A stretch of DNA of 64,000 bases from Fragilaria crotonensis (Eukaryota; Bacillariophyta; Fragilariophyceae; Fragilariales; Fragilariaceae), in NCBI GenBank assembly GCA_022925895.1, contig JAKSYS010000001.1, positions 496,001-560,000 of the forward strand, in the 5' to 3' direction. Numbering within the stretch: the first letter of the stretch is position 1; every line of letters begins with the position of its first letter. Shown piece after piece: positions 16,099 through 61,600 of this stretch. Below the pieces are notes generated by a model. That model was not told the origin of the DNA and made no database searches. It saw only the letters and a list, made by a program, of their open reading frames with translations. Position numbers and translations under genes: made by a program.

Positions 16099-19000
16099 AT
16101 GATGCAGACTGGTCCAAATGCCATGACTCCACCGTCTACAAAATTAACTTGCCTCATGCATGCTGCATTTCGTCTTTTTGTACGCCCTGCTCCTATGTTC
16201 TCCAATCACCTTCACCTTGCAGGAAAGCTGTTCCACCAATACATTGTAGACTGCTATGCCCAAGTGGAACAAGGTCGCCTTAACTTCATCCGTCATAATC
16301 AACCAAAATTGCGTGCTGAACTATATCAAGGCATTGCAGAGCAACCTTAACTTCATCCGTCATAATCAACCAAAATTGCGTGCTGAACTATATCAAGGCA
16401 TTGCAGATGCTGTTGCTGGAGAGGATGTGACTAACACACGACAGCTTGGGCGTCGAATTATTCTGCCTTCATCTTTCATTGGAAGTCCAAGGAACATGCA
16501 CCAACTTTGTCAAGATGCATTGGCAATTGTGCGCCGAATGGGCAAGCCAGATCTTTTTATTACAATGACAACCAATCCACAGTGGCCAGAAGTCATGGAA
16601 AATCTTCTTCCTGGACAAACTGCAAATGACAGACCAGATTTGGTAGCACGAGTGTTTCATCTCAAGTTCACAGAGATGATGAGTGATCTCCAGAAACGAC
16701 AAGTGCTTGGAAGGGTTGTGGCTGCTATCTACACCATTGAATTTCAAAAGCGAGGATTGCCACATGCGCACATTCTGGTTATTCTGGCAGAAAATGACAA
16801 ACCCCGTACAGAATCTGACATTGATTGTATCATTTCAGCTGAGATCCCTGATGCATTGATAGATCCTGAGCTGCATGCAACTGTGAAGCGATGTATGTTG
16901 CATGGGCCCTGTGGCACCAAAGTTTCCCCAAATCGATGGCAAAGTCTGAAATGTTGTAATAGTCCTACACACCCAGGTGAATGCACTGATAAGTATCCCA
17001 GGCCATTTCAAGATGAGACAACCCTCAATGATGATGGATTCCCTCAATATCATCGACGTGATGATGGAAGGACTGTGACTGTTCGAGGAGCCGAGTTGGA
17101 CAACCGCTGGGTAGTGCCATACAATTGCTATCTTACCAAGAAGTATGACTGCCACATCAATGTTGAGGTTTGCAACTCAGTGCAGGCTGTCAAATACCTC
17201 TACAAATATGTATACAAAGGCCATGACCGTGCTGCAGTCCAGGTTGGTGATAATACTGATGAGGATGAGATCAACCTCTATCTTCAGGGACGTTATGTCT
17301 CTGCATCTGAGGCATGCTGGCGCCTCTTCAGTTTTCGTCTTCACACTGAAAAGCCAAATGTGATGCGCCTAATGTACCATCTTCCCAACCAGCAATCAGT
17401 TGTGTTTCAGGAAGATGAAACAGTTGATCAAGTACTTGCAAGGGGAGCACCCCATATACAGTTGCTTGCATGGTTTGAACTCAATCAAAATGATCAATAT
17501 GCTTGCCAGTTCCTGTATCATGACATCCCTCAGCACTATAGATGGGATAATGCTGGGAAATGCTGGGTGCGGCGATCACCTAATCACCAGCAAAAATTCC
17601 CCACTGTATCTCGCCTCTACAGTGCTTCTCCTTCTTCTGGTGAGCGATACTTTCTGCGGCGCATGTTGACTGTTGTGAAGGGTGCAACAAGTTTTCAAGC
17701 TCTACGAACAGTGGATGGAGAACTTTGTCCAACATTTCAAGATGCCTGCCGTACACTAGGTCTTCTGGATGATGATACTGAGTGGCATAGAGCCATGCAG
17801 GAAGCCACACAGATAGTGTCAGCATGCCGGCTCAGAAGACTCTTTGCAATCATCCTTTTCAACTGTGATGTCTCTGATCCAAGGTCACTCTATCAGTCTT
17901 ACTGGGCTGCAATGTCAGAAGACTTTGCACACCATCACCCTGGCTTCACTGAACAACTGCTGCAGGACTTCCTTGTGCGTGAACTTGATGCCCTCCTGGG
18001 GATGATGTACAGTCATTCTGTATTTGAATGGGTACCATCCCTTCGCACACTTCTGCTTGAGCATGCAACTCCTGTGGATAATTCTATCAACCATTGGTTG
18101 CAATTACAGCTTTCGTCATCCAGCAGTGATATTCAACAACAGCTGGATCGCTTCCCTCTTCTGAATGCCCAACAACATGCTATTTTTGATGCTGTCCTGG
18201 CATCTGTCAATAGTGGTACTCAAATTCAGCAAAATGTGTTCTTTGTTGATGGGCCTGCAGGCTCAGGTAAGACAGAGTTGTTCAGAATGATCCTTGCAAA
18301 GGTGCGCAGTGAAGGACATGTTGCTCTTGCAACAGCTATATCAGGTATTGCTGCCACCAACTTTGCTCCTTTGGGCCGTACACTGCACTATATATCTGGA
18401 CTTCCAATTCAATTGTACGAAACATCCATGTGCAACCTATCAAAAGACAAGGCAGAAGTTCTGAAGGTAGCAAAGCTTTTGATCATTGATGAGATCACAA
18501 TGCTCAAGGGTGTTGGTCTTGATGTTCTTTCACAGTCTCTTTGTGACTTGCTTGAATGTGCTGATGCTCCTTTTGGTGGTTTGGTTGTTATCATGGGTGG
18601 TGACTTTCGTCAAGTGCTTCCTGTACTAAGCCATGCTGGACGAGCTACCATTGTGCATTCAACTGTCCTACAATCTAAAGTCTGGCAGACTTCATCTGTG
18701 AACATAATGCAACTCTCTGAGAATATGCGATTGCGTATGGACTTAGAAAACACAAGTGACCCACAGCTGCAAGAAGTACTTTCCCATTTTGCATCATTCC
18801 TCTTGAGGATTGGTGAGGACATGGAGCCTTCCCCAATAAATCTACCATTGTATATTTCCCAGCCTCAAGAAGTGAAAGAACTGGTTGAGCATGTGTTTGA
18901 TGATTTTTCTTCTAATGATCCACTCTATTGGTCTGAACGTGCTATCCTATGTCCCAAAAACAAAGATGTTCAACAAATAAATGATATGGTATCATCAAGA

Positions 19001-19579
19001 TTACCACATGATGAGCATATATTTCTCAGTATTGACAACATCATGTCTGAAGAAATTGATGATCCTGCATATACCCTCTATCCTCCTGAATTCCTGAACT
19101 CTTTGGAGCCATCAGGCCTCCCACCACATCGCCTCAGTCTAAAAAAAGGCATGCTGGTCATGTTGCTCCGAAACCTATCAAGTACACTCAGCAATGGCAC
19201 CCGACTCATGGTTCGCCGTATCTCACGGTCCATCCTTGAATGTTCTGTTCCTACCTCTGGTGAAATTGTGGACATACCACGAATTGCACTCCTTTCACCA
19301 GAAGATGAACTGCCTTTCATCTTTAAACGACGACAGTTTCCAGTCCGACCAGCATATGCAATGACCATCAACAAGAGTCAAGGTCAAACATTGCAAAAAG
19401 TTGGAATCTTTGTGCCACAAGGCATATTTGCACATGGTCAACTTTATGTTGCTCTTTCACGAGTTCGTAACCCACATGATCTTTTTGTATTTACTGGTGG
19501 TCATCCACTGCACAACATTGTTTACAAGGAGGTCCTCATTTCAACATTGTGCCCTCGGCATCATCAGCAACAAAATTAA
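16099..19579 (+). pseudogene. Helitron Rep/helicase, 5'-truncated and frameshifted
   Basis: From about 16185 the frame encodes the end of a Helitron-like N domain (GKLFHQYIVDCYAQVEQ). A 67-bp tandem duplication at 16278-16411 shifts the frame, after which it is open to 19579 (over 1050 codons). The HUH motif is GLPHAHIL, and KYLYKYVYKG supplies the Rep tyrosine region. A PIF1-type helicase follows, with Walker A GPAGSGKT, Walker B LLIIDE and a C-terminal LYVALSRVR motif. The usual N-terminal several hundred residues are missing, so rolling-circle transposition by this copy alone is unlikely. The Met at 16256 lies in the wrong frame and is not a real start. TC and CTRR ends were not found. Confidence 0.88.
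16278..16407 (+). repeat. Tandem duplication (63 bp plus 4 bp) breaking the Helitron frame
   Basis: The block at 16278-16340 is repeated exactly at 16345-16407; the step of 67 bp is one more than a multiple of three. It turns the frame encoding NFIRHNQPKLRAELYQGIA into two partial copies in different frames. Confidence 0.92.
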
Positions 19580-31574: not shown

Positions 31575-33034
31575 ACTCACTTGAGCACGAAGCGAGAGGA
31601 CAGAGCAGGTGTTTTTGAAGCATATGTCAGCTTTACATTTCCCGAACTCTCGCATACATGAAGCGTTTCCTGGCAGACGCATAATAAGAACTTGCGTCCG
31701 GCAATCTTGCCTTCGGATCTGACTGATGTGCCAGCTGTTGGATAGTCTGTGAGTTGCCGATATCTCGCTTTGGCTAAATGCTGGGTTAATCGCTCTGATT
31801 GGACTATTCTACTTAGACGCCAATGGTGCTCATACGTGGATCGTTCAGGGGACGTCGCGGTGCACTGCAATGTACTCCAAATATTGGAGTAAAGGTGATG
31901 TACCCTCGCGTTGCTCGAGACCAAGCTCTGGATGTCAGGGTACTATTCCTGATACCAGGAAAAGTAGGATTACCAATAAAGCACAAGTGTTGAGTGCACG
32001 ACAACGATTAAGGCTCGAAATTGATGGCCCGAGCGTCTCTAGAGTCTCTGCTTCCGACCCGTTAACTATTTTCGCAAATGCTTGGCGTAGATGTAAGTTA
32101 GGTTGTGCTGCTCGGAGTGCTCCGTATATTGGAACTTTAAACTTTTATCAGTGGATACGTAATACGTAGGGCTGAGTGTTGAGTGACGAGTACTACAGTA
32201 CCATCTACGGTAGTACGTAGTACTACCGTTTACAGGGGTACTTTAGCTACGGTAGTCGCCAGTCGCCAACTATGAATATTTTCCTGCGGCTTTATACATG
32301 TATAGTCGTTCATACTCTTCCGACTTCCGACCACATACTTGTATGCATACCTGACGATACTTCAGTACTGGTACAATTGTACCTTTGTGGTGTATCATTC
32401 TACCGTATAAACTGTTCATACTGGTACATAGTATTGCCGTGCGAATGAATTTACTGGAAAATGAGTTTACTGCAAAATGTACCCAAACATAGAAAATGCT
32501 GCATGATTCATAGTGGATATTTACTTCAATTTGAAGGACACGTGTTCGTACGCCAACGTGGCTTCGGTGTGAAAAGCTTTTAGCGGGAATTATGTGTATG
32601 TACTGCGCCACCTCCCAAAACCCGAGAGAATTTAATGAAGTGTATGCCCCAATTCTTCACAAATGCCTTATTGGGCTTCGGAGGAACGGCCCTATTATGT
32701 GTGTCCAACGGGTCACCGTGGACAACGCGCTGTTTGTAACCTTTTCTATTTTCTGTTTATCACTCATCTCATGCAATTTTGCAGGGACAACCAGAATGAG
32801 GTCGGAAGGACATGAGATAGGATACATGACAGGATTGAAACCGTTCGACACTTGAAAAATATAATTAAATACTCCGAGTATAATATAATAACTGTGGTGA
32901 GCCTTCGGAAATGAGATCAGGAAGGATATGTGCCCTCCCAACTCACAACATACTGGGTTGGTGTGCCACCGCCACTCAAAGAAGATGCGATGATGGTCGA
33001 TTTCTGGGTAGTATAGCTGTATCGTTAACTGGGT
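31575..33034. other. Intergenic; no convincing gene
   Basis: Overlapping frames of up to 115 codons on both strands (31577-31924, 31870-32169, 32270-32611) show no motifs. GTAC words cluster at 32190-32260. Confidence 0.4.
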
Positions 33035-34312
33035 TCAAAAGACGTTAAGCGTTTCCCCTTCAACAGCATCCTCGGTTTGTATCTCCACTACGATCGGCCG
33101 TTCGTGCGTGAGACCAATAACCTCCGACGCCATCATGCGACCGAACTCCTCTTTGCTAAACTTGGAGCCCTTAACTTGCACCAAAACAAACACCACCTCC
33201 TTCTCCCCATCTCTAATTTGCTGTATCAGGCCCCGGTTAAATTTTAGGACACCGCTGGCTCGACCCTTCTGTTGCAGCCGCTTCACTAGGTCTTCCATTG
33301 ATTCTTCGTCTGGCCCACTCGTTCTGGCATTTAACGTCGTCTCGAATATAGTGCAAGTTCCTTCTCCAACTTCGCCACCATCATATCGTACATCCCGGCG
33401 TCGAAACGTAAACAGAGCATTTAATTCTGGCTGTCGCTTCGGCTCTTCCTCCATTGAAAACGTCAACCAACCACCGCTACCATCGTCGGCAATATCGAAC
33501 AAGTCCGATTCACCAAATGGATTACTTCGACTCGGCTGATGCATAGCTGTCGATCGATGAAAGTCGTCGGTCATGACCGACAAATCACAGCTGTTGCTAT
33601 TGTTGATCGTATTGATATTTGTGTTTGAGAGCGTGGGTGGGGAAGCAGTTGTAGTGGTAATAACCATATTTTGCAATTCTGGTAACATCGTATGGGCAGC
33701 ACCATGTGAAAATGAGTCAGCATCATCATCATTATCTTGTTCTTCGACTCGAAGATAAATCTCCTGCAATATTGCTTCATTGGATCTTCTTGATCTCTGG
33801 CCTGGTGAAATATATGATGATGACTCTGTGACGGGAGTTTGTGGATCCACTCTCCGTATCGAAGTGTAGTTGACGGTGTATTGGAGAGCACTGCCACGGT
33901 TTGCGCTGCTGGACGTTGAAGAATGCGTACTCCGTCGAAAGTAACCATTACTCTTTTGTTTTTCAGCAGTTTCAGTTGAAGTGGCTGAAGTTGTGGCTGC
34001 GGATGATGATCGAGTTAGCATTGTTTTCTATCTCAAGACAATTGCATGCACAACAAGTACTCCGGTACAAGATAGTTTTTGAACGTTGAACAATGACTTA
34101 CCTTTGCCAATATTTTTGTCTGCAGAACCACCGCCCAAAATGGAACGCGAAAGAGTAAAGGACCTTCTTCTCCTCATTATTGGTGGTTTTCCTGAGGACT
34201 GCGAGGGAGAATTGTCGAGAGCAGCATCTGCATCGATATTGTCCGCGTCATCATCTCCTCTCGCAGCTTGCCCTTTTCCAAGTACTCGTTGAAATCCCTT
34301 TTTCCCAGATCC
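33035..34312 (-). pseudogene. Host gene of unknown function, 3' part, split by the Copia insertion
   Basis: Exon 2 (33996-33035) and the rest of exon 1 (34312-34102) are separated by a GTAAGT...AG intron in phase 1; an alternative acceptor 12 bp downstream also keeps frame. The retrotransposon sits in exon 1, seven codons after the start codon at 39862. Removing it and one GATCC copy gives an uninterrupted frame of about 396 aa. The protein is Ser/Asn-rich with an RRRRSFTLS motif and a more conserved-looking C-terminal part (LVKRLQQKG, FNRGLIQQIRDGEKEVVFVLVQVKG). No family recognised. Transcription could still begin in the 250-bp LTR, whose inside offers an in-frame ATG at 34363. Confidence 0.75.
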
Positions 34313-34562
34313 TGTTGGAATATATTTAGGAAATTCAAGAGGGATTTTCACGATTAGAGTCATTCAGACTATGACTACTCGGGATCAAGCAAGATCGAAA
34401 ATTTACATGAATTACATGCAGAGAATGGATCTCATACTTTACTAAAACTCTTAGGAACGATTACATCGAACACTGTACATCTACAACCTATTTGACCCCT
34501 GACATATCCTCAAGGGATATAAGAAGGCTATCGTAAGTAGACCTCGGGGTGCAATTTCAACA
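34313..34562 (+). repeat. 5' LTR of the Copia element
   Basis: 250 bp, starting TGTTGGAATATA and ending TTTCAACA; by reading it is identical to the 3' LTR. It would carry the promoter and polyadenylation signals. Confidence 0.95.
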
Positions 34563-34647
34563 GTTTTAGTAAAGTATCCGGGCAAGGATAGCACCGTGAA
34601 GAGTACCGGACCGCAGAGTGTCTGAAGAAGACCCACAGGGCGATAAC

Positions 34648-36056
34648 ATGAGTAGTAAAGGGCGTTTTGCGAAGAAAGGCAAGGGCAGCAAGTCCCAGAC
34701 GAAAGGAAGTAATTCCAACGCACCAGCTGCTAGTAAGAAGCAGTATGTGACCGATTATAATTATTATCTCGGATCATCGAAGCAAGCGTCTGACTACGAA
34801 ACGACGACAGAATTTCTGATCAATCATATCAAGAAACTGTACGACTACGGAAATGACATTGGATCCGCGCTTGAGAAGCTAGAGGCCATTGATACAACGG
34901 TTTGGAAACCATCTATGCAAGTGAGCGGAAAGACCGACGAAGAGATTCGCGCGATTGAGAACAAGCAGTATGAAATAGAGTTCAAGTCGGATTACGATAC
35001 TTATCGAAAGCGCATGCAGGTTTATGAAAATAACCTTACCAAAGCGTATGCACTGCTTTGGGAGCGTTGCGCGAAAGCCATGAAGAACAAAATTGAGGCT
35101 CGCTCCGATTACGACAAGATTAAGAACAATCCGATCCTGTTGTTGAAGGCGATTAAGGAACACGCGTTGAACTACCAAGAGAACAGGTATTCAATGTCGA
35201 TTGTGTTGGATGCGTTGAGAACGCTACTGAGCACAAAGCAAAGGAGGGCGAGGGCTTGCAGGACTTCACGAAAAGATTCCGCGTGGCGCGAGACGTGCTC
35301 AAGTCACATGTCGGAGGACCGATTATATTGACTAAAATTGTAGAGGCCATGGAAGGTTATGCAGAAGCCGATGACGACAAGCGAGAGAAAATACACGAGC
35401 AAGCATTCAATCAGTTTCTTGCATTCTTGTATCTGGACAACGCCGATAAGGCTAAGTACGGATCCATCCTAACTGGTTTGAACACCCAGCAGTCGCTCGG
35501 AAACGACCAGTATCCGAAGAGTATCACGGAGTCGAACAACGTACTAAGCAATCACAAGTTTGACACCATGCCGAACAAATCCAGTGGAAAGAAGAACAAC
35601 TCCACAGACGGCAACAAGGGTAAGGACAAGAAGGATGACGACAAGGACGAAGACGAAGTCAATCTGTCGTTCGCACAACTCGAAGGGAAGTGCTACTGCT
35701 GCGGAAAAGCAGGTCACAAGTCGCCATCGTGTCGCGATAAAGGAAAACCCAAAGAGGAATGGGCGATTAATAAGGCCCAGAGCCATGCGCAGACGACAGC
35801 GTCGTCAGACGCAAGCTCGGTGACTCCGCCATCAATCAACAACACGCCGCCGCCAAGTTCGAGCTCGAGCGTAACAGGATGGGCCGGAGCACACATTGAG
35901 TTGCAGTTCCAGCAATTCGATGCGCACGAAATGCGAGACTGGATATTATTGGACAACCAATCAAGTGTCAGCGTCTTTTGTAACAAAGAGCTGGTACAAA
36001 ATATTCGGAGGTCGAACGACGGCGACATGCATTTGTCGACAAATGGAGGGTCTTAG
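34648..36056 (+). pseudogene. Copia gag and protease region, frameshifted
   Basis: The frame starts at ATG 34648 with a Lys/Ser-rich head and a helical capsid-like part (SDYETTTEFLINHIKKLYDYG). Near 35215 it must step back one base to continue as ENATEHKAKEGEGLQDF. A zinc knuckle CYCCGKAGHKSPSC (C-x2-C-x4-H-x4-C) follows, then a protease-like LLDNQSSVSVF. The stop at 36056 arises from a further missing base near 36050. Both breaks are explained by a single G lost from a G run. Confidence 0.8.
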
Positions 36057-36108
36057 TAACAACTCACAAGGCTGATCTCCTCAATGGGGAGAAGTCTGGT
36101 TCAATGAA

Positions 36109-39100
36109 ATGGCGATTACAAACATCATAAGTTATGCCGAAATGGCAGATCGCTATCGCATTACATATGACTCCGGAAAGGAGGATGCGTTTGTCGTTCA
36201 TCTCAGCGACGACAAGACTGTTCGATTCACCAGACACGGCAATAATCTCTACGTGTTTAAACCTCCGATCAAGAAGCAGGTACAACTTTTGAATACAGTT
36301 GAGGAAAACAAGACCTTTTTCACGCAGCGTCAGTTCGAAAGAGCGAAGAGAGCTCGTGATCTATATCACGCTCTGGGCACGCCTTCGATTAGTGATTTCA
36401 AGGCAATGCTGCGTATGAATACTATTATAGGCAACCCGGTCACGACCGAAGACATTGTAATGGCCGAACAAATTTTCGGAACCGACATTGGTCGGATCAA
36501 GGGCAAGACGACTCGTCGTAAGCCAGCACCTGTCGTCGATGATTACATTGAGATTCCGAAGGAATTAATTGCTACGCAACGTAATGTAACGATATGCATG
36601 GACGGTATGAAGGTCAACGGACTTTCCTTTTTAACGACTGTGTCGAGGAACATCCAATACAGGACCGCGCAATACGTCAAGCATCAAACGGCAGACATAT
36701 ATCGTGAGGTACTCGGACAAATTTTTCGTGTGTACAACGCTGGTGGATTTCAGGTCACAATCATTCGATGCGATAACGAGTTTCGTCCACTTATTGAACC
36801 GCTTGCCGATGAATTTCATGTTGCCATGAATTTTGCCAACGCTCAAGAGCATGTGCCAGAAGCAGAGCGAAACAATCGCGTTATTAAAGAACGCGTACGG
36901 GCTACTTATCATCGGTTGCCGTATCGACAGCTGACCAGGACGATGGTCAAAATGTTGGTATCAGAATCAGCTAAGAAGCTGAATTTCTTTCCGTCCAAGA
37001 ACGGAGTTTCTAAGTTCTACAGTCCGAGGATGATGTTACATCAGAGGAACCTCGACTATTCGCGACATTGCCGATACGCACTAGGGACGTACGTCCAAGC
37101 TCACGACGAGCCCAAACATTCGAGCACGAATGCGCCACGCAGTTTAGACTGCATCTATCTTCGGTACAAAGATAATCTCCAAGGTGGTCACGAATTACTT
37201 CATCTCCCCACCAATTCAATTATTACAAGGCGAAATATTACGCCCGTTCCGATCACTCCGGCCATTGTCAGTCAAGTTCACACGCTCGCACAGGCCGAGG
37301 ATATGCCCGCCGGTCTAAAGATCGAAAACCGTACAGGTCAGATCTTTTATGACAGTGCGTGGATTCCAGGAGTGGATTATGATGACGAACAGTTCGACGA
37401 CGACCTCGACGAAAACTTTGAGCATGAAGACGATCAAGACGACGACCCAAACGATCAACTACCTGAAGGTCAGTATGATTATGAAGACGGTGACGACGAT
37501 GATTTGCTCGATTATGAGGATGATGCAATGTCAGATGACAACAATGATGACGATGACGGTCAAGACCCACATGCCAACAATGCAGGAGTGGCGGCAGAAG
37601 TTATTCAAGGTAACCAAGTTGAAGCTCGTGAAGCCCCTACCGTTGTCGATGAAGAAGAAGATTTGGACAATGAAAGCGGAGACGAATCAGAAACAGAAGC
37701 CGAAGAAGCGAATCCACGCGCTGATCAAGAGGAAACAGAAAACGTGAGAGTGACGAGGTCGGGAAGGACATCGAGACCGCCAACAAAGTTGACGTTAGCA
37801 CAACATCACCTACACGCCCAAGCACACAACGTGTGTGAACAGTACAGTATCGAGACTGCACGGGTAATCGCAATAACGATGTGTCACATGGCGGATATGC
37901 GATTTAATCCGAAGTGCAAAACTGCCCACCAGTTCATTCAATCCTACAGTCTCATGAAAGGACTTAAGAAATTTGGTCACAAAGGCAGAGAGGCTGCGTA
38001 CAAGGAGATGAAGCAGTTGCATGAGCGAGTGGTATTCAAGCCCATCAAGATTGCCGAATTGACGGAACAAGAGAGGCAACGAGCAATGGAGAGTTTGATT
38101 TTTCTCGTGGAAAAGAGGGACGGTACGATCAAAGGACGAACCTGTGCCAACGGTAGTACTCAGAGAGAGTACATGGATCGAGAAGAGGCAGCCAGTCCGA
38201 CGGCGATGACGGAATCCATTATAATCACAGGAGTGATCGATGCGAAGCAATGTCGGGACATTATGACCGCTGATATTCCGAATGCGTTTGTGCAGACGGA
38301 CATCGATAAGAAAGAGATTGGCGAGCGCATCATCATGAAGATTCGAGGACCCTTAGTTGATATGTTGCTTGAGCTAAGTTATGAAACTTATGCTCCGTAC
38401 GTCGTGTACGAAGGAAGCAACAAGGTATTATACGTCGCGATGGAGAAAGCGTTATACGGCATGCTCCAATCATCCCTACTCTACTACAAGAAGTTCCGCA
38501 AGGATATTGAGTCTATTGGATTCGTTGTGAATCCATATGATCCGTGTGTCGCGAACCGAACTGTGAACGGTAAGCAACATACTGTCACCTGGCACGTCGA
38601 TGACCTAAAGTCTAGTCACGTTGACCCGAAGGTGAATGATGAGTTTTTGAATTGGCTCAAAAAGAAGTATGCCTCCGATGAAATCGGAGAGGTAAAGGCC
38701 GTGCGTGGTCATCAGCACGATTATCTGGCTATGGTGCTCGACTACTCCAGTCCGGGAGTATTGAAGTTGGACATGACGAAGTACGTAAAAACGATGGTGG
38801 AGGATTTTCCGTTAACGCTGAGTGGTACTGGAGCTTTCCCGTGGACGAACAAGTTGTTTATCGTGGATCCCAAGTCGAAGAGGTTGGACGAAGAGCGAGC
38901 GAGTATTTTTCATACTTTTGTTATGAAAGGAATGTTTTTGTGCAAACGTGCACGCCAGGACGTGCAACCTGGAATTGCTTTTCTATCGACTCGCACGTCA
39001 GAACCCACCGAGCAAGATTGGGCGAAGCTTGTCAAGCTGATGTTGTTTTTGAAAGCAACTCAGAACGACGTCACTACTATGGAGGCGGATGACTCGCAAA

Positions 39101-39567
39101 CAATTAAATGGTATGTGGACGCTTCGTTTGCAGTCCACAGGGACTATAAAAGCCATACGGGAGCGACCATGACGCTTGGGAAAGGTGTACTCAGTTCGGT
39201 GTCCACTAAGCAAAAGGTTATGTCTCGGAGTTCCACAGAGGCGGAACTCGTCGGTTTGGATGATGTAATATCCAAGATTCTTTGGTCGAAGTTGTTTATC
39301 GTAGCGCAAGGCTACAATGTGAAAACGACCATAATCTATCGAGACAATACGAGTGCGATGAAACTCGAGGAGAATGGAAAATCAAGCTCGGGGAAGCGAA
39401 CAAGGCACTTTCATATCAAGTACTTCTATATTACTGACTTGATTCGGCGCAACGAAGTTACAATCGAATACTGTCCTACTGATGCCATGATTGCCGACTA
39501 CATGACGAAGCCATTGGTCGGAGCGAAATTTATACACTTTCGCGCCAGCATAATGCGTGCAACATGA
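36109..39567 (+). CDS. Copia pol: integrase, reverse transcriptase, RNase H
   Basis: A 1,152-codon open frame. Integrase core has D in CMDGMKV, D in RCDNEF and E in PEAERNNRVIKE. A highly acidic linker (DDDD-rich, about residues 420-530) precedes the RT region with NAFVQTDID and the catalytic WHVDD box. The RNase H part shows WYVDASFAVH, SRSSTEAELVG and YRDNTSAMKL, and ends 22 bp before the 3' LTR. The true N-terminus is upstream of 36109: WFNE precedes the Met once a missing base near 36094 is allowed. Copies cDNA and integrates it; probably functional apart from the gag-side breaks. Confidence 0.92.
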   Translation: MAITNIISYAEMADRYRITYDSGKEDAFVVHLSDDKTVRFTRHGNNLYVFKPPIKKQVQLLNTVEENKTFFTQRQFERAKRARDLYHALGTPSISDFKAMLRMNTIIGNPVTTEDIVMAEQIFGTDIGRIKGKTTRRKPAPVVDDYIEIPKELIATQRNVTICMDGMKVNGLSFLTTVSRNIQYRTAQYVKHQTADIYREVLGQIFRVYNAGGFQVTIIRCDNEFRPLIEPLADEFHVAMNFANAQEHVPEAERNNRVIKERVRATYHRLPYRQLTRTMVKMLVSESAKKLNFFPSKNGVSKFYSPRMMLHQRNLDYSRHCRYALGTYVQAHDEPKHSSTNAPRSLDCIYLRYKDNLQGGHELLHLPTNSIITRRNITPVPITPAIVSQVHTLAQAEDMPAGLKIENRTGQIFYDSAWIPGVDYDDEQFDDDLDENFEHEDDQDDDPNDQLPEGQYDYEDGDDDDLLDYEDDAMSDDNNDDDDGQDPHANNAGVAAEVIQGNQVEAREAPTVVDEEEDLDNESGDESETEAEEANPRADQEETENVRVTRSGRTSRPPTKLTLAQHHLHAQAHNVCEQYSIETARVIAITMCHMADMRFNPKCKTAHQFIQSYSLMKGLKKFGHKGREAAYKEMKQLHERVVFKPIKIAELTEQERQRAMESLIFLVEKRDGTIKGRTCANGSTQREYMDREEAASPTAMTESIIITGVIDAKQCRDIMTADIPNAFVQTDIDKKEIGERIIMKIRGPLVDMLLELSYETYAPYVVYEGSNKVLYVAMEKALYGMLQSSLLYYKKFRKDIESIGFVVNPYDPCVANRTVNGKQHTVTWHVDDLKSSHVDPKVNDEFLNWLKKKYASDEIGEVKAVRGHQHDYLAMVLDYSSPGVLKLDMTKYVKTMVEDFPLTLSGTGAFPWTNKLFIVDPKSKRLDEERASIFHTFVMKGMFLCKRARQDVQPGIAFLSTRTSEPTEQDWAKLVKLMLFLKATQNDVTTMEADDSQTIKWYVDASFAVHRDYKSHTGATMTLGKGVLSSVSTKQKVMSRSSTEAELVGLDDVISKILWSKLFIVAQGYNVKTTIIYRDNTSAMKLEENGKSSSGKRTRHFHIKYFYITDLIRRNEVTIEYCPTDAMIADYMTKPLVGAKFIHFRASIMRAT

Positions 39568-39589
39568 GCATCATCGTCCAGCAGGAGTG

Positions 39590-39839
39590 TGTTGGAATAT
39601 ATTTAGGAAATTCAAGAGGGATTTTCACGATTAGAGTCATTCAGACTATGACTACTCGGGATCAAGCAAGATCGAAAATTTACATGAATTACATGCAGAG
39701 AATGGATCTCATACTTTACTAAAACTCTTAGGAACGATTACATCGAACACTGTACATCTACAACCTATTTGACCCCTGACATATCCTCAAGGGATATAAG
39801 AAGGCTATCGTAAGTAGACCTCGGGGTGCAATTTCAACA
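39590..39839 (+). repeat. 3' LTR of the Copia element
   Basis: 250 bp, reads identically to 34313-34562, and is followed directly by the GATCC target duplication. Confidence 0.95.
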
Positions 39840-39862
39840 GATCCTTGATGACCCCCCATCAT
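39840..39862 (-). pseudogene. Start codon and first codons of the split host gene
   Basis: On the minus strand ATGATGGGGGGTCATCAA then GATCC. It encodes MMGGHQ and joins in frame to GSGKKGFQRV at 34312 when the element is removed. This is the natural start of the gene at 33035-34312. Confidence 0.75.
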
Positions 39863-40770
39863 GGTCAATTCGATGCAAGTGTTCTTGTGCTCGTCAGATC
39901 GTCAGTGTCCACGCTTCTCATTCAACAAACAGCACGATGTGGCATAGCTTTTGCAATGTGCGATGAAGGTACCAAGATGTAGTACAGAGTACAAAGGAGA
40001 TCCGATGTGCGACGTGCGACCCAGTAAATTGCTGAGTTAAGCCGAAGAGCGACGCCGGGAGATGACGGAAATGCGGAATGCCTGCCAATCGGACACGAGG
40101 GCCTGACGACATTCGTTTCTATTCAGTATTTAACACTTTCAGAATGTACTCCTAGTACCGGCCTCTACCTACGACGCAGACCGAACGACCTGTACTGTAT
40201 GTATATTAACGTAGGACCAGAAACTCAGAAAAAGTCGGAATGGTACTCCCGACTCACGAGTTAGTTATCAGTACCAAAGCGCTCGTTAATTTACGGAGTT
40301 AGCGGCCCAGTCTGCCACTTCCCTTGGATACCGGGTGACTGATCGTTTCTAAATGAGACAACGTCCGATGCCCAAACATTCCCAACGGTATCGTATGGGG
40401 CATAGGTATGAAATTGGTCTGGTAGTCATACAATGCTTTCATAGGTCATAGCAGCTTCCAATATCACAACATCAATGTGATCGGTGGGATTGCAAAACTT
40501 TGCGACCTCGTCACAAATACAGAACTCCCGTACCACACCTAGTACAGTACTGCTACTGATACCGGTACAGTATACACCCGTAGTACAGTACTCTAGCTGC
40601 TGGTAGAGAGTCCATGCCACTTGAAAAGGCCCTGTAGCCCTGTACTAGTACCCTGTATGAAAAGGTAAGGTATGCAGGGAGCCTTCATCTTGGTACCTGG
40701 TACCTGGTACCTGGTACCGACTTCTTGAGTATGATACTGGTACAATACTTCACTCTTCGTTCCATGGTCT
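39863..40770. other. Promoter side of the split host gene; GTAC-rich intergenic
   Basis: No gene. Tandem GGTACCT at 40692-40719 and many AGTAC words. It should include the 5' UTR and promoter of the interrupted gene. Confidence 0.5.
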
Positions 40771-40773
40771 TAA

Positions 40774-42202
40774 GGGCCACCCTTATGAGATTTTTTAAAA
40801 CAGAAACAGAAACATTTTTGTTTTTATTGGAGATTTTTTTGCGCCTGCACCCTTGTGAGAAAAGCACATAACAGGAACAGAAACAAGGGAATCGTATGAG
40901 TCGAAACTTAGTCGAACGAGTCGAGTTCATTCGCATGCCCTCGAGCAAACGAACGACATCGTTTCTCGACGACGAAGGTGTAATGCACTCCAGTAGCTAC
41001 TGGTAACTACTAGTAAATGGCCAGCATGAATCAAGCAAGTATAGTATCATCTACTTTTTGATTGCAGACCTCCTTTTGTTTTTGACAAGGATCACAAATG
41101 TACAAATCGGTTGCTTCGTCTAGTTTGTGTCTCTTGTCCACCTTCTTCACAATACGCATGAATTCTGCATGAGAGCGAAGGGACTCTGCGCCATACTTGA
41201 CAATTTGGCTGGGTAATAAGGGCACATAGGTTGCTGAATGAGAGAATTATTTCCTGATCGTCATAATCGATTTCAACCTCGTTCGGCGATGAATCGTTCA
41301 GGAACCAGACGAAGCCGAACCAAGACCAACAATTGTACAGCTTGGTATGTCGCCCTCAAAATCTCTGCCTTGACATTCTTCGATAGGCATGGAATGCTGA
41401 AGAATAAGTTGAGTTTCGTCTTCTGTACCACTGATATGACAGCATCTATCGACCCCGGCTTCAAAGCCTCGCTCATCAACAGACTCAGACCAGAAGGTTT
41501 CAATTCGCATGATGCAGCACGTTTGCCAGAAGCCTTGCGACGAAGGTCATGGAGATAATTGTCTCTTGATTTGTTGCAAAAAAAGCACCCCAAACTCATA
41601 AACTGCAAGTTGAGCAAGGAGATCAATCGCCTTTGCTTGCATTTGTAGGGATGACTCTCACAAACGCTGCGTAATCATCTCCTCGATGCAATTATGGACA
41701 GTAGTTCCTCGTCATTCGTGTCGTCGGCTCGTGCTCGTTTTGCCAACAACTTGACACCATAAGTTCCAGCTCCAGCTGTGAAAAGGACTTGACATTGCAC
41801 TTGAAACAAAGTGATGATGGCAAGTGTACAAAAACGAAAGATACGGTGGTCCCTCATTGCATGAACTGTACTCCGAGTCTCCGAGTAGTATGACATGTGA
41901 CATGTGCAACGACGTAAAACAAGTACATGGTACTCCGATACTCCGATTACTTCGTACCAGTATCGCATCCGAGGGAACCTCGAATCCCATTGATGCAATT
42001 CGGTTTCTGTTTTTCCAAAATGGTTTCTGTTGCACGATCAGAAACCGAAGTGGTATCTGATTGGATTTGGGATATGGGGCGCATCCTAACAGAAAAGAAC
42101 TTTTTCCCGTAACTCGTTTTCTGCTCACAAGGGTGGTAATTTTGAGGAACAGAAACAGAAACGTTTCTGTTTCTGTCAAAAAAAATCTCATAAGGGTGGC
42201 CC
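40774..42202. mobile_element. 1.43-kb terminal-inverted-repeat element with TAA duplication
   Basis: Both ends start GGGCCACCCTTATGAGAT followed by a T run, ACAGAAACAGAAAC, and an inner CACCCTTGTGAG, so the arms extend about 95 bp with changes. TAA flanks both sides (40771-40773 and 42203-42205), the 3-bp target size of PIF/Harbinger-type elements. No intact transposase was found: short minus-strand frames at 41031-41225 and 41273-41626 are unrecognised. Probably non-autonomous. Confidence 0.78.
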
Positions 42203-42503
42203 TAATTACATGTCTGTTGTGCGTATACGTCATCTCATTTTTTCTCGCTCAACGAGATGCTAGCTCAATGATAACCAACACCCCACCGCACCATTGCTAC
42301 TGGTATAATACAATAAGAGTACCTTCTGAAATGCTACGGTGTTCGCGAAGAGTGAAGACGAATCATCGTGGGTGAGAGTTGAGCGTGATCAATTGAGAGT
42401 GATGTCCGAAGTTTTTGCATTTCAACATGTACCTTGACTTGTTATGCTTTAAATGCTATGCTACTCCTTCTTCCTAAATGCACGTCGGCACCAAGAATGT
42501 TCT

Positions 42504-54268: not shown

Positions 54269-55620
54269 GTTCTTCGTTTTCCGTCGTTGGCTTTTATGTC
54301 CAATCCAAAGCAGTCATCCCTGATCCCAAATTGACTTATGTAAGATCATAGATGAATACCGGGGGCATTCGGAAACGCACCTAGGATGGTAATATAAACA
54401 ACGTAGAAGCTACGAGTACATAAGTAAACACGGATTCTGCAACTGCCCCTGGTCGGATTACCCTGCGACCTCATCGTATGACTCACTCCCACACGTGGTG
54501 TTTTCCACCCCAAAGGAGCAAAAAGATCTACGCACTATCTACTAAAACATACAGCATGCTGGTTTCTCCATGTCCCATCGCGTTTCAGCGATGACGAATG
54601 ACACTTTGCTCCTTCGTAGTGCGCTAATGTCCGAGTCGGTGGTGATAGCTATATTTCACGACCTCGCGGTGTCAGGTTTTCGAGGTGGCGAGTGCGCAAA
54701 CATAGAGGAATGTGAGATACACTGATATCAGAGGATTCCAAGAAGCCTATGTCTGCATTGCAACAATCCACGCAGAATTTTCATTACTTGTAAGGAAAAC
54801 GTCTACCGGTCTGTCCAACGGCGACATATTCTCTATGTAACAATGCGAAAGTCGTTTTGCTCACGGTTGGTACTACTACTTTTATTGTACGTTTAACGGA
54901 ATGAACCAGAATTTCAGTACCACATAAACGAATGACTAACAAAGACTGCTACAAGACGCGCATTTCTAATGAACGGGAGTCCCCTAATCGAGCCATGGGA
55001 GGATTCACTCACGGATATTATTCGAGAGACATCATTTTCTGATTGAACCTCGTACGATTCCATCTTGTTCGAAAGATTAGCCATTCTCCCTAAGTAAACC
55101 AAATGTGCGTTTTGCATTGAATGATTCGTTAAGTAGGATCTTCAAGATGAAATTGCTCCTTTGTCTCGAAATTTTGGTGACATTTCTGACACGCTAATTA
55201 AAACGGTTCACCCTTTAAAGACAGATTGTCCTTTCAGAACAAGTGCTGTTTCGCTTTCGGATTTCGATTCCACCGGTCAACAATTTTTTCGTGTTTAGAA
55301 GGTGAATCATTAAAACGTAACTTGCAGATCGCAGATTTTCACATCCCTTCCTCCCTCGAAATAACATTTGCATTTTTGTTCGCCCCACTCTGTATCGTCA
55401 GATTGGTTTCGAAGAGAATCGTAAGTGATGCCGCTTGCGTGCCTGAATTCTATTGTCGAAAAGCTGAGCCATCTTTAACTTACCTTGCTGTGATTGCTTT
55501 TGTAAGTCCCTGAGCAACAGTGTGTGAGCTAGAAAAAACGGAGTTTATTGGGTTTGTACTTTGAACTTCAGCTGACGCCATCGCGCTTTCCCCTGTCTCT
55601 CCCTGCACAAGCCCTCATCG
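54269..55620. other. Intergenic; divergent promoters, no gene
   Basis: Lies between the divergent SR-rich gene and the giant secreted-protein gene. Unlike other spacers it has few GTAC words. Short frames only (for example 55226-55513) without motifs. Confidence 0.45.
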
Positions 55621-58600
55621 ATGCAGCTCGTCGTTGCCTCCTTCCTTTTGGCAGCTGGGCTGTTGGCGTCACTCGTGACCGCCCAGTTGCCATCCCCTGT
55701 TCAGACCTACTTCGTTCCCTTGCCCGAGAATGATCTCATTGCCCTTTTTAAAGAGATGTCTGCGGGAGTAAATCCACCTGCAAGTGGAAATGTAAACACT
55801 GTCATCTCGATCGCCATCGCCTCAGATAACACCATCGTTTACTATGATCATTGGGAAGATGGCTTCGAAACAGATGCCAGACTCAAGACCCAGTCCACAA
55901 CTCTCATTTGGGGTGATGGAAACTTACTTAACGGTATTGCGCCCGGAACTGTTGATGACAAGCTGAAGGGGGGAACTGCAATTGTACTTTCGAACAATGT
56001 GCCTGTTCCTCGTGTGAGCTCCAAGATCTTCTTTGACGGAAGTGATCGAATTCAATCTTCCCTCCCTATTGCTGTCACCCGCTTCGCATACCCTGACCAA
56101 CCAGGATCGCTCATGGCAGGCGCCGTTGAGGTCTTCAATTTTAATTCCTGGGGACGAAAGTTCATTGCTCCAGTTGGCGCGACGACTTCTAGCTCCACGA
56201 ACGCTTGGGAAATCGCTAGGTTTTACGTCATGGCGGGGGAAGACAACAGCGAAGTGTTCAAGAATGGTATCAAGGTCGGTGGCACATTCAACAAGGGACA
56301 GTCCATTAATTTCTCTGTCAAGCAAGGTGACGTGATAACTTCTGATCGCCCAATCCAAGTGGACCTCATTGGTGCCGACAAGGACGATACTTACGAGCTT
56401 CGTTGGTATGCCCAGGTTGACGCAGGTGACTGGACCGATGAATACATTTCACCAGTTGCAGAAACCTTGGGAAACACAGCGTTCTGGTTTTATAACCCGA
56501 ACACCAGTCCTATCACCATCGGGTACAATGGTGGTAATTTGCTAAGTGGATCATTCGTCGTTCCTGCTCTATCCAGCAAGATGATTCCATGCACCACTAG
56601 ATCAGGAACTGATAGAATTCAAATCCTCACCGGTGACACCACAACTACCGGTTCGAGCACATCCAGGTTTTCTGGTGTGCGTTTCAAGGGGACTGGCGGT
56701 TCCTTTTATGCTTTGGTGCAGGTTGATGCGGACGACGAAGGGCAGATCTACGATTGGGGCTTTCCAATGATTCCTACCTCTCGGCTTACTTCTCAGGCTC
56801 TCGTTGGCCTTGGATTAGGCTGCACGACTGGGTGTCTTACAGACAATAACCAGGGGGTCAAGAAGGAGAGGAGTGTCGTCTGGGTCACCCCGATCGCGGA
56901 TACTTACATCTACGTGGATTTCGACGGTGACGGTGTTTTTGACTTTAACCAGCGAGTGACTGCCCTCAACTCACTTCGAATCACCGACACCAAGAAAAAT
57001 GACAACGATATGACAGGAGCTATCATTGCAAGTGTGGACGCCGCACCAGTTAACGGCCAACCACCAGTTGGTTTGCCGGTGAGCATCGGACTTGCCTGGG
57101 GACAAGATCCTATCCGCTCCTATGGGGGTGATGGTGAGGCGTTGGATCTGGGTACTGCCGTTCTTCCTCTGGCGAACCCCGACCTCAACAAGGAAGTCGT
57201 CGCAGTGATCAATCCCGATGGCTCCGTGGACCCTTTCAAGTCTGTTGACCAAGTGGGTGATATCATCAGCTACATCATCATCGTCAGTAATGTTGGATTT
57301 GCTGATCTGACGGGTGTTGTGGTGAATGATCCCCTCCTGACTGGCAAACTCGTTGGTCCGACCGAGTCTAAAAACACAGATGGAATACTGGCGCGCGGAG
57401 AGACCTTCACCTACCGTGGGAACTACACTGTGACGGCAGCTGATATTTCTACCAAGGGCGGTGGCGACAATAACATCGAAAACCTCGCGTCGGTGACAAC
57501 AAAGGAATACCCCAAGCCAGTGATTGTGCAGGTCGAAACCCCGATTTTCCTCGCCACAATCAGCGGAAACGTGAAGGAGGATGTTGACGCCAACGACACT
57601 GGCGACGTCAATATCCCGGGCGTTCTCATCACCTTGCTTGACGGGACTAACAAAGTGTTGGCCACAACTCTGACCGACGCGAACGGTAAGTACGCCTTTA
57701 TCAACCTCACCGCTGGCAACTACGCCGTCAAAGAGACCAACTTGAGTGGTTACATTGACGTGAAGGATGTCGACGGGGGCGATCCCAACCTCATTGTTGT
57801 TGCCAATGTAATCGGCGGCACCGACAGACTTGGAAACGACTTTGTTGATGAAAGGAAGGGTTCTATTTCCGGTTTCGTCTTTGAGAACGTTCTCAACGGT
57901 CCACCCATAGCCTCCGTCACGATCACTCTCCGCGACAGTTCGAATGCCATCGTTGCGACCACTTCCACCGATACGGCTGGTTTCTACAAGTTTTCTGGAT
58001 TGATTCCTGGCCTCTACACTGTCGTTCAGACGAATCTTTCAAACAACGTTGAGGATGTCAGTGACTTTGACTCGGCGCCTGACGGCGACCCCCAGGATGG
58101 CGATGTGGTCGTGGACAACAAGGTATTCGTGAAGCTCAATTCCAACGAAGACGACGTCAGGAACGATTTCGTCGACAAGCTCAAGAATGGCTCTATTTCA
58201 GGTGTTGTGACCGATGACAAAGGAAACAAGTTGGCGGGAGCGGTCATCAAGTTGATCTTCGGAGGTGTCGTTGTTGACACCCAAACCACTGGCCCCGCTG
58301 GAACTTACTCGTTCACTAATCGTGTTCCTGGTGACTACATTGTGCAGGAAACCAATCCTTCTGGATACCCTCTTGACGTCAGTGACTACGACAACAGTGC
58401 CGACGGCGATGCTGCGGATAGCGATACGACTGTCAACAACTCTATCGGAGTGAAGCTTCTTCCCGGTGAGAACGACACTGACAACAACTTCCAGGACAGC
58501 AACAATGGAAAGATCAGTGGAACTGTCAAGGATGACGGCGGAAACCCTCTTGTATCTGTCCTGATCACACTGAAGCGTCTTGACGGCACCACAGTCGCAA

Positions 58601-61600
58601 CCACCTTGACTGGTACCGACGGCAGCTATCTGTTCAGTGAATTGGAACCAGACAGCTACAACGTGTTCGAGGAGAACCCACCACTCTTCCCAATCAATGT
58701 CAGCGACCGCGATACGGACCCTGACAGCGTGCCAGACCCAACCGACTCTGACATTGCCGTGGATAACAAGATTGGCGTTGTGTTGCAGCCTGGTGAAACC
58801 GACAAAGGAAACGACTTTGTGGACAGCAACAAGGGAAAGATCACTGGTTCTGTGACGGACAACCTCTCGAACCCATTGGTTGGGGTACTTTTAGAGTTAA
58901 AGTCTGGCACCACCGTGATCAAGACGACGTTGAGCGGCGGCAATGGTGGTTATGTTTTCGACGGCATTCCACCAGGTAGCTACACCGTGGTTGAGACCAA
59001 TCCTAGCAGCCATCCGGCCAACATCAGTGACTATGACAACTCTCCGGATGGCGACGCGAGTGACAGCAACAGGACGTGGACAACATTATTGGTGTCACTC
59101 TGACCCCCGGTGAGACCGACTCTGACAATAACTTTGTTGATGCGAAGACCGGCTCGATCTCAGGTACTGTGAAGGACGACAACGGTGGTCCACTTTCTGG
59201 TGTGACAGTTCAATTGAAGGATTCGACCGGTGCTGTCGTGAGGACAACGGCCACCAATGGCAGTGGGGCATACCTGTTTTCCAATGTCTTCCCAGGAACT
59301 TATACTTTGTTTGAGATCAACCCGCCTGGATACAACACTGATGTCAGCGACTATGATACCAGCAACGATGGCGATGCGCCTGATTCTGTCACTACCGTGG
59401 ACAGCACCATTGGAGTAGTGCTCCTCCCGGGTGAAAATGACGACAACAACGACTTTGTGGACAGCGACAATGGTTCCATTTCTGGTACAGTCACGGAAGA
59501 CCAAGGAATGCTCGTGGGTGTGAAGCTGACACTGACCACATCGAACGGTGTACCAGTCGCAACAACTGCAACCAATTCCAACGGAGCGTACATCTTTAGC
59601 AATGTTGAGCCTGGCGCCTACTTCGTCGTCGAAACCAACCCCGATGCGTATCCCAGTAATGTTAAGGATGAGGACTCGACTCTTGATGGTGATTCTGGCG
59701 ACACCAACAAGGATGTGGACAATTCCATCCCTGTAACACTTCAAAAGAGTGAAAGTGACACCGGCAACGACTTTGTTGACAGCAACAATGGTGCAATTTC
59801 AGGTACAGTGAAGGATGACGACGGCCAGGCTTTGAAGAATGTCATAATTCAGCTCAAGGATACCATCAGTGGAAGCATCATCCAAACTGCGGCAACGAAT
59901 GTCCTTGGTGCATACTCATTCAATGAACTCGAACCAGGCGATTACACCGTAATTGAGATCCAGCCAGGTAGCCACCCCATTAGTATAAGTGATCGAGATG
60001 AGGTAGGCGATGGCGATGCCGGCGACAGTGACACAACGGTGGACAATTTGATCCAGGTCACCCTGAAGCCAAGCGAGTCCGATGCGTCGAATAACTTTGT
60101 TGACAGCAACAAGGGATCCATCTCTGGTAAAGTGACAAGTGCGGACGGTGATCTACTGTCTAACGTTCTCATAACGCTTCTTAACGGAAGTTCAAATATC
60201 GTTGCCACAACAGTAACGGATTCCAACGGCAAGTATCTGTTTGCAAAGATCCCTCCAGGCGATTACAAAGTGATTGAGACAAACCCTGCGGACTTTCCCA
60301 GTAATGTCAGTGACAAGGATGAGAGCAACGATGGAGATGCTGGTGACAATAATGATGCCATCGACAACGCTATCGCGGTTACAATTCAACCAGGCGAAGC
60401 CGACAAGGACAACAATTTCGTGGACGACGACAATGGCGCCATTTCTGGAAGTGTGACGGATGATCAGGGCAAACCCCTTGCGAATGTCAAGATTGAATTG
60501 CTCAAGGGTGGTCCGGATGGTTCCGTTATTGATACTGTCTTTACGAATGCTGTCGGAAGCTACACGTTCAATAGCGTCGAGCCTGGTGACTACGTTGTGA
60601 AGGAGACGAACCCCGTGGACTACCCAAAGAACTTGAGCGATGGGGACAGAAGTAGCGATGGAGATGCTGATGACCTGTCCACCACGCCTGATAACTTGAT
60701 CAAGGTAACCCTGAAGCCTGGTGAGCTTGATTCTGACAATAACTTTGTTGACAGCAACAACGGATCAATTTCTGGTACCGTGAAGGATGACGAAGGTAAG
60801 CCTCTCGCTGGTGTCACGATCCAGTTGCAGAACCCGAATGGAACCATTGTGGCAACCACCACTTCGGGTAGCAGTGGAGCGTACACATTCCCCGATGTGG
60901 AGCCTGGACCGTATGTGTTGGTGGAGAAGAATCCAGACGGATATCCTGGTGATGTGAGCGACTACGACACCACGCCGGATGGTGATGCTGGAGATGGTGT
61001 TGTGAATGCCGACAACAAGATTCCTGTCACCCTGCAGCCAGCTGAAGATGATACTGGTAATGATTTCGTGGACAGCAACAACGGCTTGATTTCTGGTACA
61101 GTGAAGGATGACCAGGGCAACGTGTTGCCAGGAGTGAAGGTGGAACTTCTGAAGCCCGACGGGAGTGCTGTCAAGGCCACCGTGACCGACTCGAATGGGT
61201 TCTACGTGTTTTCCGAGGTCGAGCCAGGCACATACAATATCAAGGAGACGAATCCTTCGGCTTACCCACTCAATGTTAGCGACTTCGACGCTAGTGACGA
61301 CGGCGACGCCTCCGATCCTGACAGAAAAGTGGACAATCTCATCGGGGTGACATTGAAGCCCGGCGAGAAGGATACGGGCAACAACTTTGTCGACAGTAAC
61401 AACGGTGCCATTACCGGGACAGTGAAGGATGACAACGGCAAACCGATTGCCGGCGTTCCCATTCAGTTGCAGTCTGGTGGCCCAATGCCTACTGTAATTG
61501 CAACCACGACGACGGACTTCAACGGAGTGTACGAATTCACTGAAGTCGAGCCGGGCTCTTATAAGGTTGTGGAGACCAATCTTGCGGCGTATCCTATCAA

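Follow-up and report, generated by a model that had tools for sequence, protein, structure and literature searches.

Complementarity between LTR and primer-binding site suggests self-priming in a group of Copia elements of the diatom Fragilaria crotonensis

The DNA analysed here, called the window throughout, is a stretch of 64,000 nucleotides (nt) from contig JAKSYS010000001.1 (positions 496,001 to 560,000) of the diatom Fragilaria crotonensis. It contains a long terminal repeat (LTR) retrotransposon of the Ty1/Copia type, present there through an ordinary integration with a 5-bp GATCC duplication; as an insertion, it is routine. The best explanation of the whole, in which we have high confidence, is a Copia insertion in or just upstream of a minus-strand gene, by a member of a diatom Copia clade that self-primes its reverse transcription in the manner of Tf1. 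It is also probable, if with more reservation, that this deep clade has abandoned tRNA priming in favour of its own RNA, of which the first 14-15 nt would serve as primer, the site being rewritten in each round; the clade would then stand apart from both the Tf1/sushi group and the plant TAR lineage, and would live in the same genome beside Copia elements primed by a half-tRNA.

The site that follows the 5' LTR is complementary to the LTR

The two sequences on which the argument turns are the following:

34434..34448, plus strand: presumed self-primer, 15 nt, where the element RNA (and with it the repeat region, R) probably begins; exact complement of the primer-binding site
34563..34577, plus strand: putative primer-binding site, adjoining the 5' LTR; complementary to 34434-34448

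In the window the exact complement is 15 nt long and lies at offset 0 from the LTR end, whereas 2,000 shuffles of the LTR that kept its dinucleotides gave none longer than 12 nt; the part of the LTR common to diverged copies begins at about 34431. Relatives were fetched from the same assembly (11 loci from 20 matches and 17 loci from 71 matches), and 22 loci, window included, had both a 5' LTR and the site that follows it and could thus be tested. An exact complement of at least 12 nt in their own 5' LTR was present in 19 of them, counting the window; five of the 19 (the window, C55, C361, C14 and C120) are near copies with one site. Where it was measured (16 loci), the helix started from the LTR edge and was 13-15 nt long (the complement of Tf1 is 11 nt), with the LTR part 96-131 nt from the LTR end. 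Two of the misses, C603 and C220, have a 5' LTR that matches their 3' LTR over just 109 and 32 nt, respectively, and in both the stretch is present in the 3' LTR. Three loci (L020, L023 and L026) gave no LTR pair, and a scan for a 12-nt complement was empty; the same scan over 10,400 ACA sites of fetched sequence gave 23 hits. A site that pairs perfectly with a stretch of the LTR upstream of it characterizes self-primed elements of the Tf1 type. The window element has such a site; among its relatives, C239 does so only via a G-U pair.

Covariation was examined on 12 distinct types representing 17 loci (near copies and C239 were excluded, and C603 and C220 were entered by their 3' LTR). Watson-Crick pairs occupied 167 of the 168 cells, and both sides had changed at 13 of the 14 positions. 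On average a site matched the stretch of its own LTR at 13.9 of 14 positions, against 6.6 for the stretches of other types. These changes are not independent events, since the types are related by descent. When folded, the RNA from 34434 to 34585 closed on the LTR/site helix (z = -2.99), and none of 200 shuffles folded equally well.

The site does not resemble the tRNAs compared; those of four other Copia loci of the genome match a tRNA-Met

The longest match of the window site was 6 nt among 28 nuclear tRNA genes and 4 nt with a tRNA-Met gene on C37. For the 13 self-type sites the values were at most 7 nt in both comparisons, which for the 28 genes was no better than shuffled sites. Unlike that of a tRNA-primed Copia, the site of the window element was complementary to none of the tRNA genes compared. 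The set is incomplete: 63 of 2,258 candidates were scored, the comparison covered nuclear genes, and the tRNA-Met of C37 was missed by the list. C880 and C881, which look like organelles, accounted for 35 of the 63 scored hits.

Five other Copia loci (L058-L062) were taken from 150 matches for their high RVT_2 scores, and are termed canonical for that reason only. None had a complement above 8 nt in its own LTR (the comparison for L060 was partial, drawing on the 180 bases at the end of its 5' LTR). In four of the five (L058-L061) the 14-nt site matched the inside of the C37 tRNA-Met gene, which we take to be that of the initiator tRNA; L058, L059 and L061 have one common site and L060 another. 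L062 (C733:117900-125800) has a palindromic site, CGTTTATAAACG, after its 5' LTR, which matched neither its own LTR nor the compared tRNAs and agrees with neither priming mode. A reverse transcriptase tree with 24 rows set the 19 of self type apart from the rest by a branch supported at 100/100 (C603 and C220 were labelled as self by their 3' LTR; C361, C112 and C239 were left out).

A possible scheme for priming, and what it has to contend with

These observations would fit the following scheme. The element RNA would start at about 34434 and fold so that its first 14-15 nt pair with the site (34563-34577) bordering the 5' LTR. RNase H, by cutting after 34448, would then leave a 3' end able to prime minus-strand DNA exactly at the LTR edge, free of any tRNA. 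Every round would write the site anew from the primer, and for that reason primer and site would remain complements while both change. If the element is self-primed, exact predictions follow: its RNA should start near 34434 and be cut after 34448, and the cDNA should begin from the LTR edge.

A number of points weigh against this scheme and the clade built on it. The pairing is observed, but the RNA start, the cut and the priming are deduced from it. The relatives all come from one genome, and the loci were picked by rank and open frame, not randomly; among them L020, L023 and L026 (of the 17) and L008-L011 (of the 11) offered no testable 5' LTR and site. The decayed copy C239 has, strictly, a complement of 6 nt, or 13 nt with one G-U pair. 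Pfam yielded RVT_2 alone for the window element, with neither an integrase nor an RNase H match, and the tree tool warned of long branches that meet. On the host side the gene model is putative, with two competing starts (see below).

The LTR/site complement could instead be an RNA fold serving packaging or translation, priming being ensured by a tRNA that was not found or by some other RNA. The fold is indeed strong and there are further conserved stretches in R-U5 (R and the unique 5' region), and the tRNA comparison was limited to 29 genes, all of them nuclear. However, 19 loci have a helix that sets in right at the LTR edge, with a length of 13-15 nt in the 16 where it was measured, and the self-type site and stretch change in step between families, whereas the tRNA-matched site is identical in L058, L059 and L061. 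We consider such a role for the complement improbable, and retain self-priming as the explanation of the pairing.

Structure of the element

The features of the element and of its borders are:

34308..34312, no strand: left target site duplication GATCC
34313..34562, plus strand: 5' LTR, 250 bp, TG...CA, identical to the 3' LTR
34618..35331, plus strand: gag-region open frame, 237 aa; gag by position only, no Pfam match
35256..36056, plus strand: second open frame, 266 aa, no Pfam match
36109..39567, plus strand: pol open frame, 1152 aa, with an RVT_2 reverse transcriptase at residues 670-911 (Pfam PF07727, 6.1e-11)
39590..39839, plus strand: 3' LTR, 250 bp, identical to the 5' LTR
39840..39844, no strand: right target site duplication GATCC

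The first-pass annotation of the window, made from the sequence alone, had reported identical 250-bp LTRs and a GATCC duplicated at both borders, and both were recovered. Within the span that it gave, 34308-39862, the element proper runs from 34313 to 39839 (5,527 bp). The LTRs start with TGTTGG and end with TCAACA; two TG...CA LTRs and a target site duplication make the element an LTR retrotransposon, and its reverse transcriptase, above the cut-off for RVT_2, assigns it to Ty1/Copia. Chance does not account for this structure, since the LTR ends recur in four other copies (C55, C361, C14 and C120), every one of them flanked by a 5-bp duplication of its own. No Pfam integrase match was obtained for the window element and three others, and a simple scan of four elements for an HHCC motif was negative; the position of the reverse transcriptase in pol would leave space for an integrase mainly upstream. 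A PDB search with one Copia polyprotein gave no match, and one scan each of viral_contigs and genome_contigs revealed no relatives beyond the source genome.

Age and mobility of the insertion

The insertion had been called recent. Identity of the LTRs does not suffice for this: zero differences over 250 sites permit a divergence of up to about 1.2% (rule of three), i.e. about 12.6 million generations at the mutation rate of Phaeodactylum tricornutum (4.77e-10 per site per generation; PMC6604790), so that recency is not derivable from the LTRs alone. Movement does look recent when the sister copy C55 is considered, with 1 substitution over 5,523 aligned sites and 4 gap columns relative to the window copy, or about 190,000 generations at the same rate if one source gave both copies (short-read polishing of repeats could mask differences between copies). 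The C361 copy differs by 4 substitutions over 5,519 sites and 11 gap columns. Between 35.2 and 36.1 kb the long frame of the window copy is broken by interruptions that are also found in C55; C120 has an uninterrupted frame of 1,652 aa. That the window and C55 copies have these breaks in common suggests that both were mobilised in trans, by proteins made elsewhere.

It could be argued that the copies owe their likeness to the assembly, repeats having been merged or polished to identity. The probable source was assembled from Nanopore reads with short-read polishing (PMC9476933), and the differences between near copies are mostly single-base gaps. But the five sites each have their own 5-bp duplication, the left flank is unique and the right flank is so over its first 830 nt, and the LTR/site complement persists in diverged families; an artefact of this kind is very hard to credit.

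The host gene: two possible starts

On the minus strand the insertion meets a putative gene, for which the following features are proposed:

39845..39862, minus strand: putative native host start, MMGGHQ; in-frame stop upstream
34313..34363, minus strand: antisense LTR sequence of 17 codons that begins with an in-frame ATG (putative start), open into host exon 1
34102..34312, minus strand: remainder of putative host exon 1, 211 nt
33997..34101, minus strand: putative intron GTAAGT...CGCAG, 105 nt
34019..34021, minus strand: alternative in-frame host ATG (328 aa), downstream of the insertion
33035..33996, minus strand: host exon 2, coding, 962 nt, of no known family; stop at 33035

Exon 2 is clearly coding: it comprises 319 codons without a stop, an outcome whose expectation, given how often stops occur in the other five frames, is about 4e-7. 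Neither Pfam nor NCBIfam gave a match to its frame, the assembly contains no paralog, and the last 153 residues of the protein gave a poor single-sequence fold (predicted local distance difference test, pLDDT, of 44). Two PDB matches (E-values 0.18 and 0.24) were discarded as not meaningful. Exon 1 is less certain, its basis being 70 open codons, one GTAAGT donor and the phase.

According to the first-pass annotation the element splits the host gene seven codons after its start. Part of this was borne out. Removal of the element and one GATCC does join MMGGHQ to GSGKKGFQRV in frame on the minus strand, with the intron phase preserved (18 + 211 nt, giving phase 1), and the insertion is of Copia type with an intact duplication; the count is off by one, six full codons preceding the duplicated 5 bp. 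The split of the coding sequence itself is less secure; there is a rival ATG at 34021. If the sequence was split after codon 6, the allele would be null or LTR-driven, the native start having been severed and perhaps replaced by the LTR-borne antisense ATG. The in-frame join with a phase-matched intron speaks for this, as do the position of MMGGHQ (first ATG after an in-frame stop, with A at -3) and that of the antisense LTR ATG at 34363, in frame and adding 17 new residues before GSGKKG. The first 135 nt of exon 1 (34312-34178) also had their best coding score in the supposed frame, at a level reached by none of 173 stop-free shuffles. On the other hand, among open segments drawn at random from the window, 242 of 1,272 scored as high, and in the supposed frame the final 75 nt of exon 1 fell below background. 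MMGGHQ taken alone is weak proof of a start, as upstream of a random window point an in-frame ATG comes before a stop in a fraction of 0.38175 of 20,000 draws, and there is no homolog to fix the N-terminus. To our mind the split could go either way.

The alternative is that the gene starts at 34021, where the ATG also has an A at -3 and opens a frame of 328 aa that does not depend on exon 1. This would place the element 291 nt upstream, in the promoter or 5' leader; the upstream region only would be altered and the protein unchanged. Such a start disregards an intron with good GTAAGT/CGCAG borders as well as 70 codons that are open and in phase, and we see it as a credible proposal that falls somewhat short of even chances. 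Both placements are compatible with self-priming by the element. LTR-driven expression of the host gene, also put forward in the first pass, is possible. Whichever start is used, the insertion in itself is routine: a transposon that may have disrupted or rewired a gene.

Empty allele and choice of target

No second copy of the insertion site was found in the assembly (62.11 Mb, 881 contigs): the left flank (32900-34312) matched itself alone, and the right flank (39840-41300) had 16 other matches, all past about 40670, in or beside the neighbouring repeat. This says little about the empty allele that had been proposed as possibly persisting, since redundant diploid contigs (haplotigs) were removed from the probable source assembly, that of F. 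crotonensis SAG 28.96 (PMC9476933).

A preference of the elements for genes was considered and rejected. Of 17 joined insertion sites, 9 fell in open frames 240 aa or more in length; for 3,000 points taken at random in the window, each with flanks of 1.3 kb, the proportion was 52.7%. The 17 sites include four that failed the automated duplication check; the duplication flanks agree for two of these (C108 and C433, for which the check had misplaced the edges) and disagree for the others (C173 and C231).

Adjoining the Copia insertion is a DNA element (40773-42203) with terminal inverted repeats of 56 nt, 88% complementary, and similar stretches are present on C785, C17 and other contigs.

Relation to known elements

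Self-priming is known in the Tf1/sushi group of Ty3/gypsy (PMC6317226, PMC5445492). As in these elements, the site that follows the 5' LTR of the window element is perfectly complementary to a sequence upstream, which in Tf1 forms the 5' end of the RNA; the window element and its relatives differ from them in their Copia-type reverse transcriptase (RVT_2) and in their complement of 13-15 nt. Since self-priming has already been predicted within Copia, for the plant TAR lineage (Houba, Osr-1; PMC6317226), the present case is a variant and not a new kind. Unlike TAR, a lineage of land plants, it concerns a diatom, several deeply diverged families and tRNA-matched Copia elements alongside. These last (L058-L061), in matching the inside of a tRNA-Met, are akin to the half-tRNA-primed Osser, Bryco and others (PMC6317226), which the window element is not. 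The palindromic site of L062 is similar in kind to the palindromic hairpin site of the fungal GalEa Copia elements, described as having no normal site and in which no such inverted repeat was found (PMC5445492).

Among diatom elements, the CoDi groups are also Copia, with LTR ends mostly TG/CA, and Blackbeard, a Ty1/copia of P. tricornutum, has an insertion on one haplotype that is absent from the other (PMC2806351). In the main text of that paper the terms 'primer binding' and 'tRNA' have 0 occurrences each. More generally, no report of self-priming in diatom Copia appeared among the literature matches listed, subscription papers being mostly outside their scope (PMC2806351, PMC3601003, PMC5445492, PMC6317226 and PMC6875170 are among those covered). 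The result bears on whether self-priming preceded tRNA priming in LTR elements, a question discussed in PMC3601003, and the genome would provide a natural side-by-side comparison of the two modes.

Other features of the window and of the genome

Elsewhere in the window, on the plus strand, a frame of 1109 aa (16250-19579) has Helitron-like N-terminal and PIF1 helicase domains, and a second frame (55576-59103) has repeated SdrD B-like, carboxypeptidase-regulatory and prealbumin-like domains, which are familiar from bacterial surface proteins. In the assembly the silicon transporter family PF03842 gave 19 matches, 18 of them over the cut-off; C97 (29749-33762) has one frame of 1456 aa with three silicon transporter domains, and C771 one frame of 1008 aa with two.

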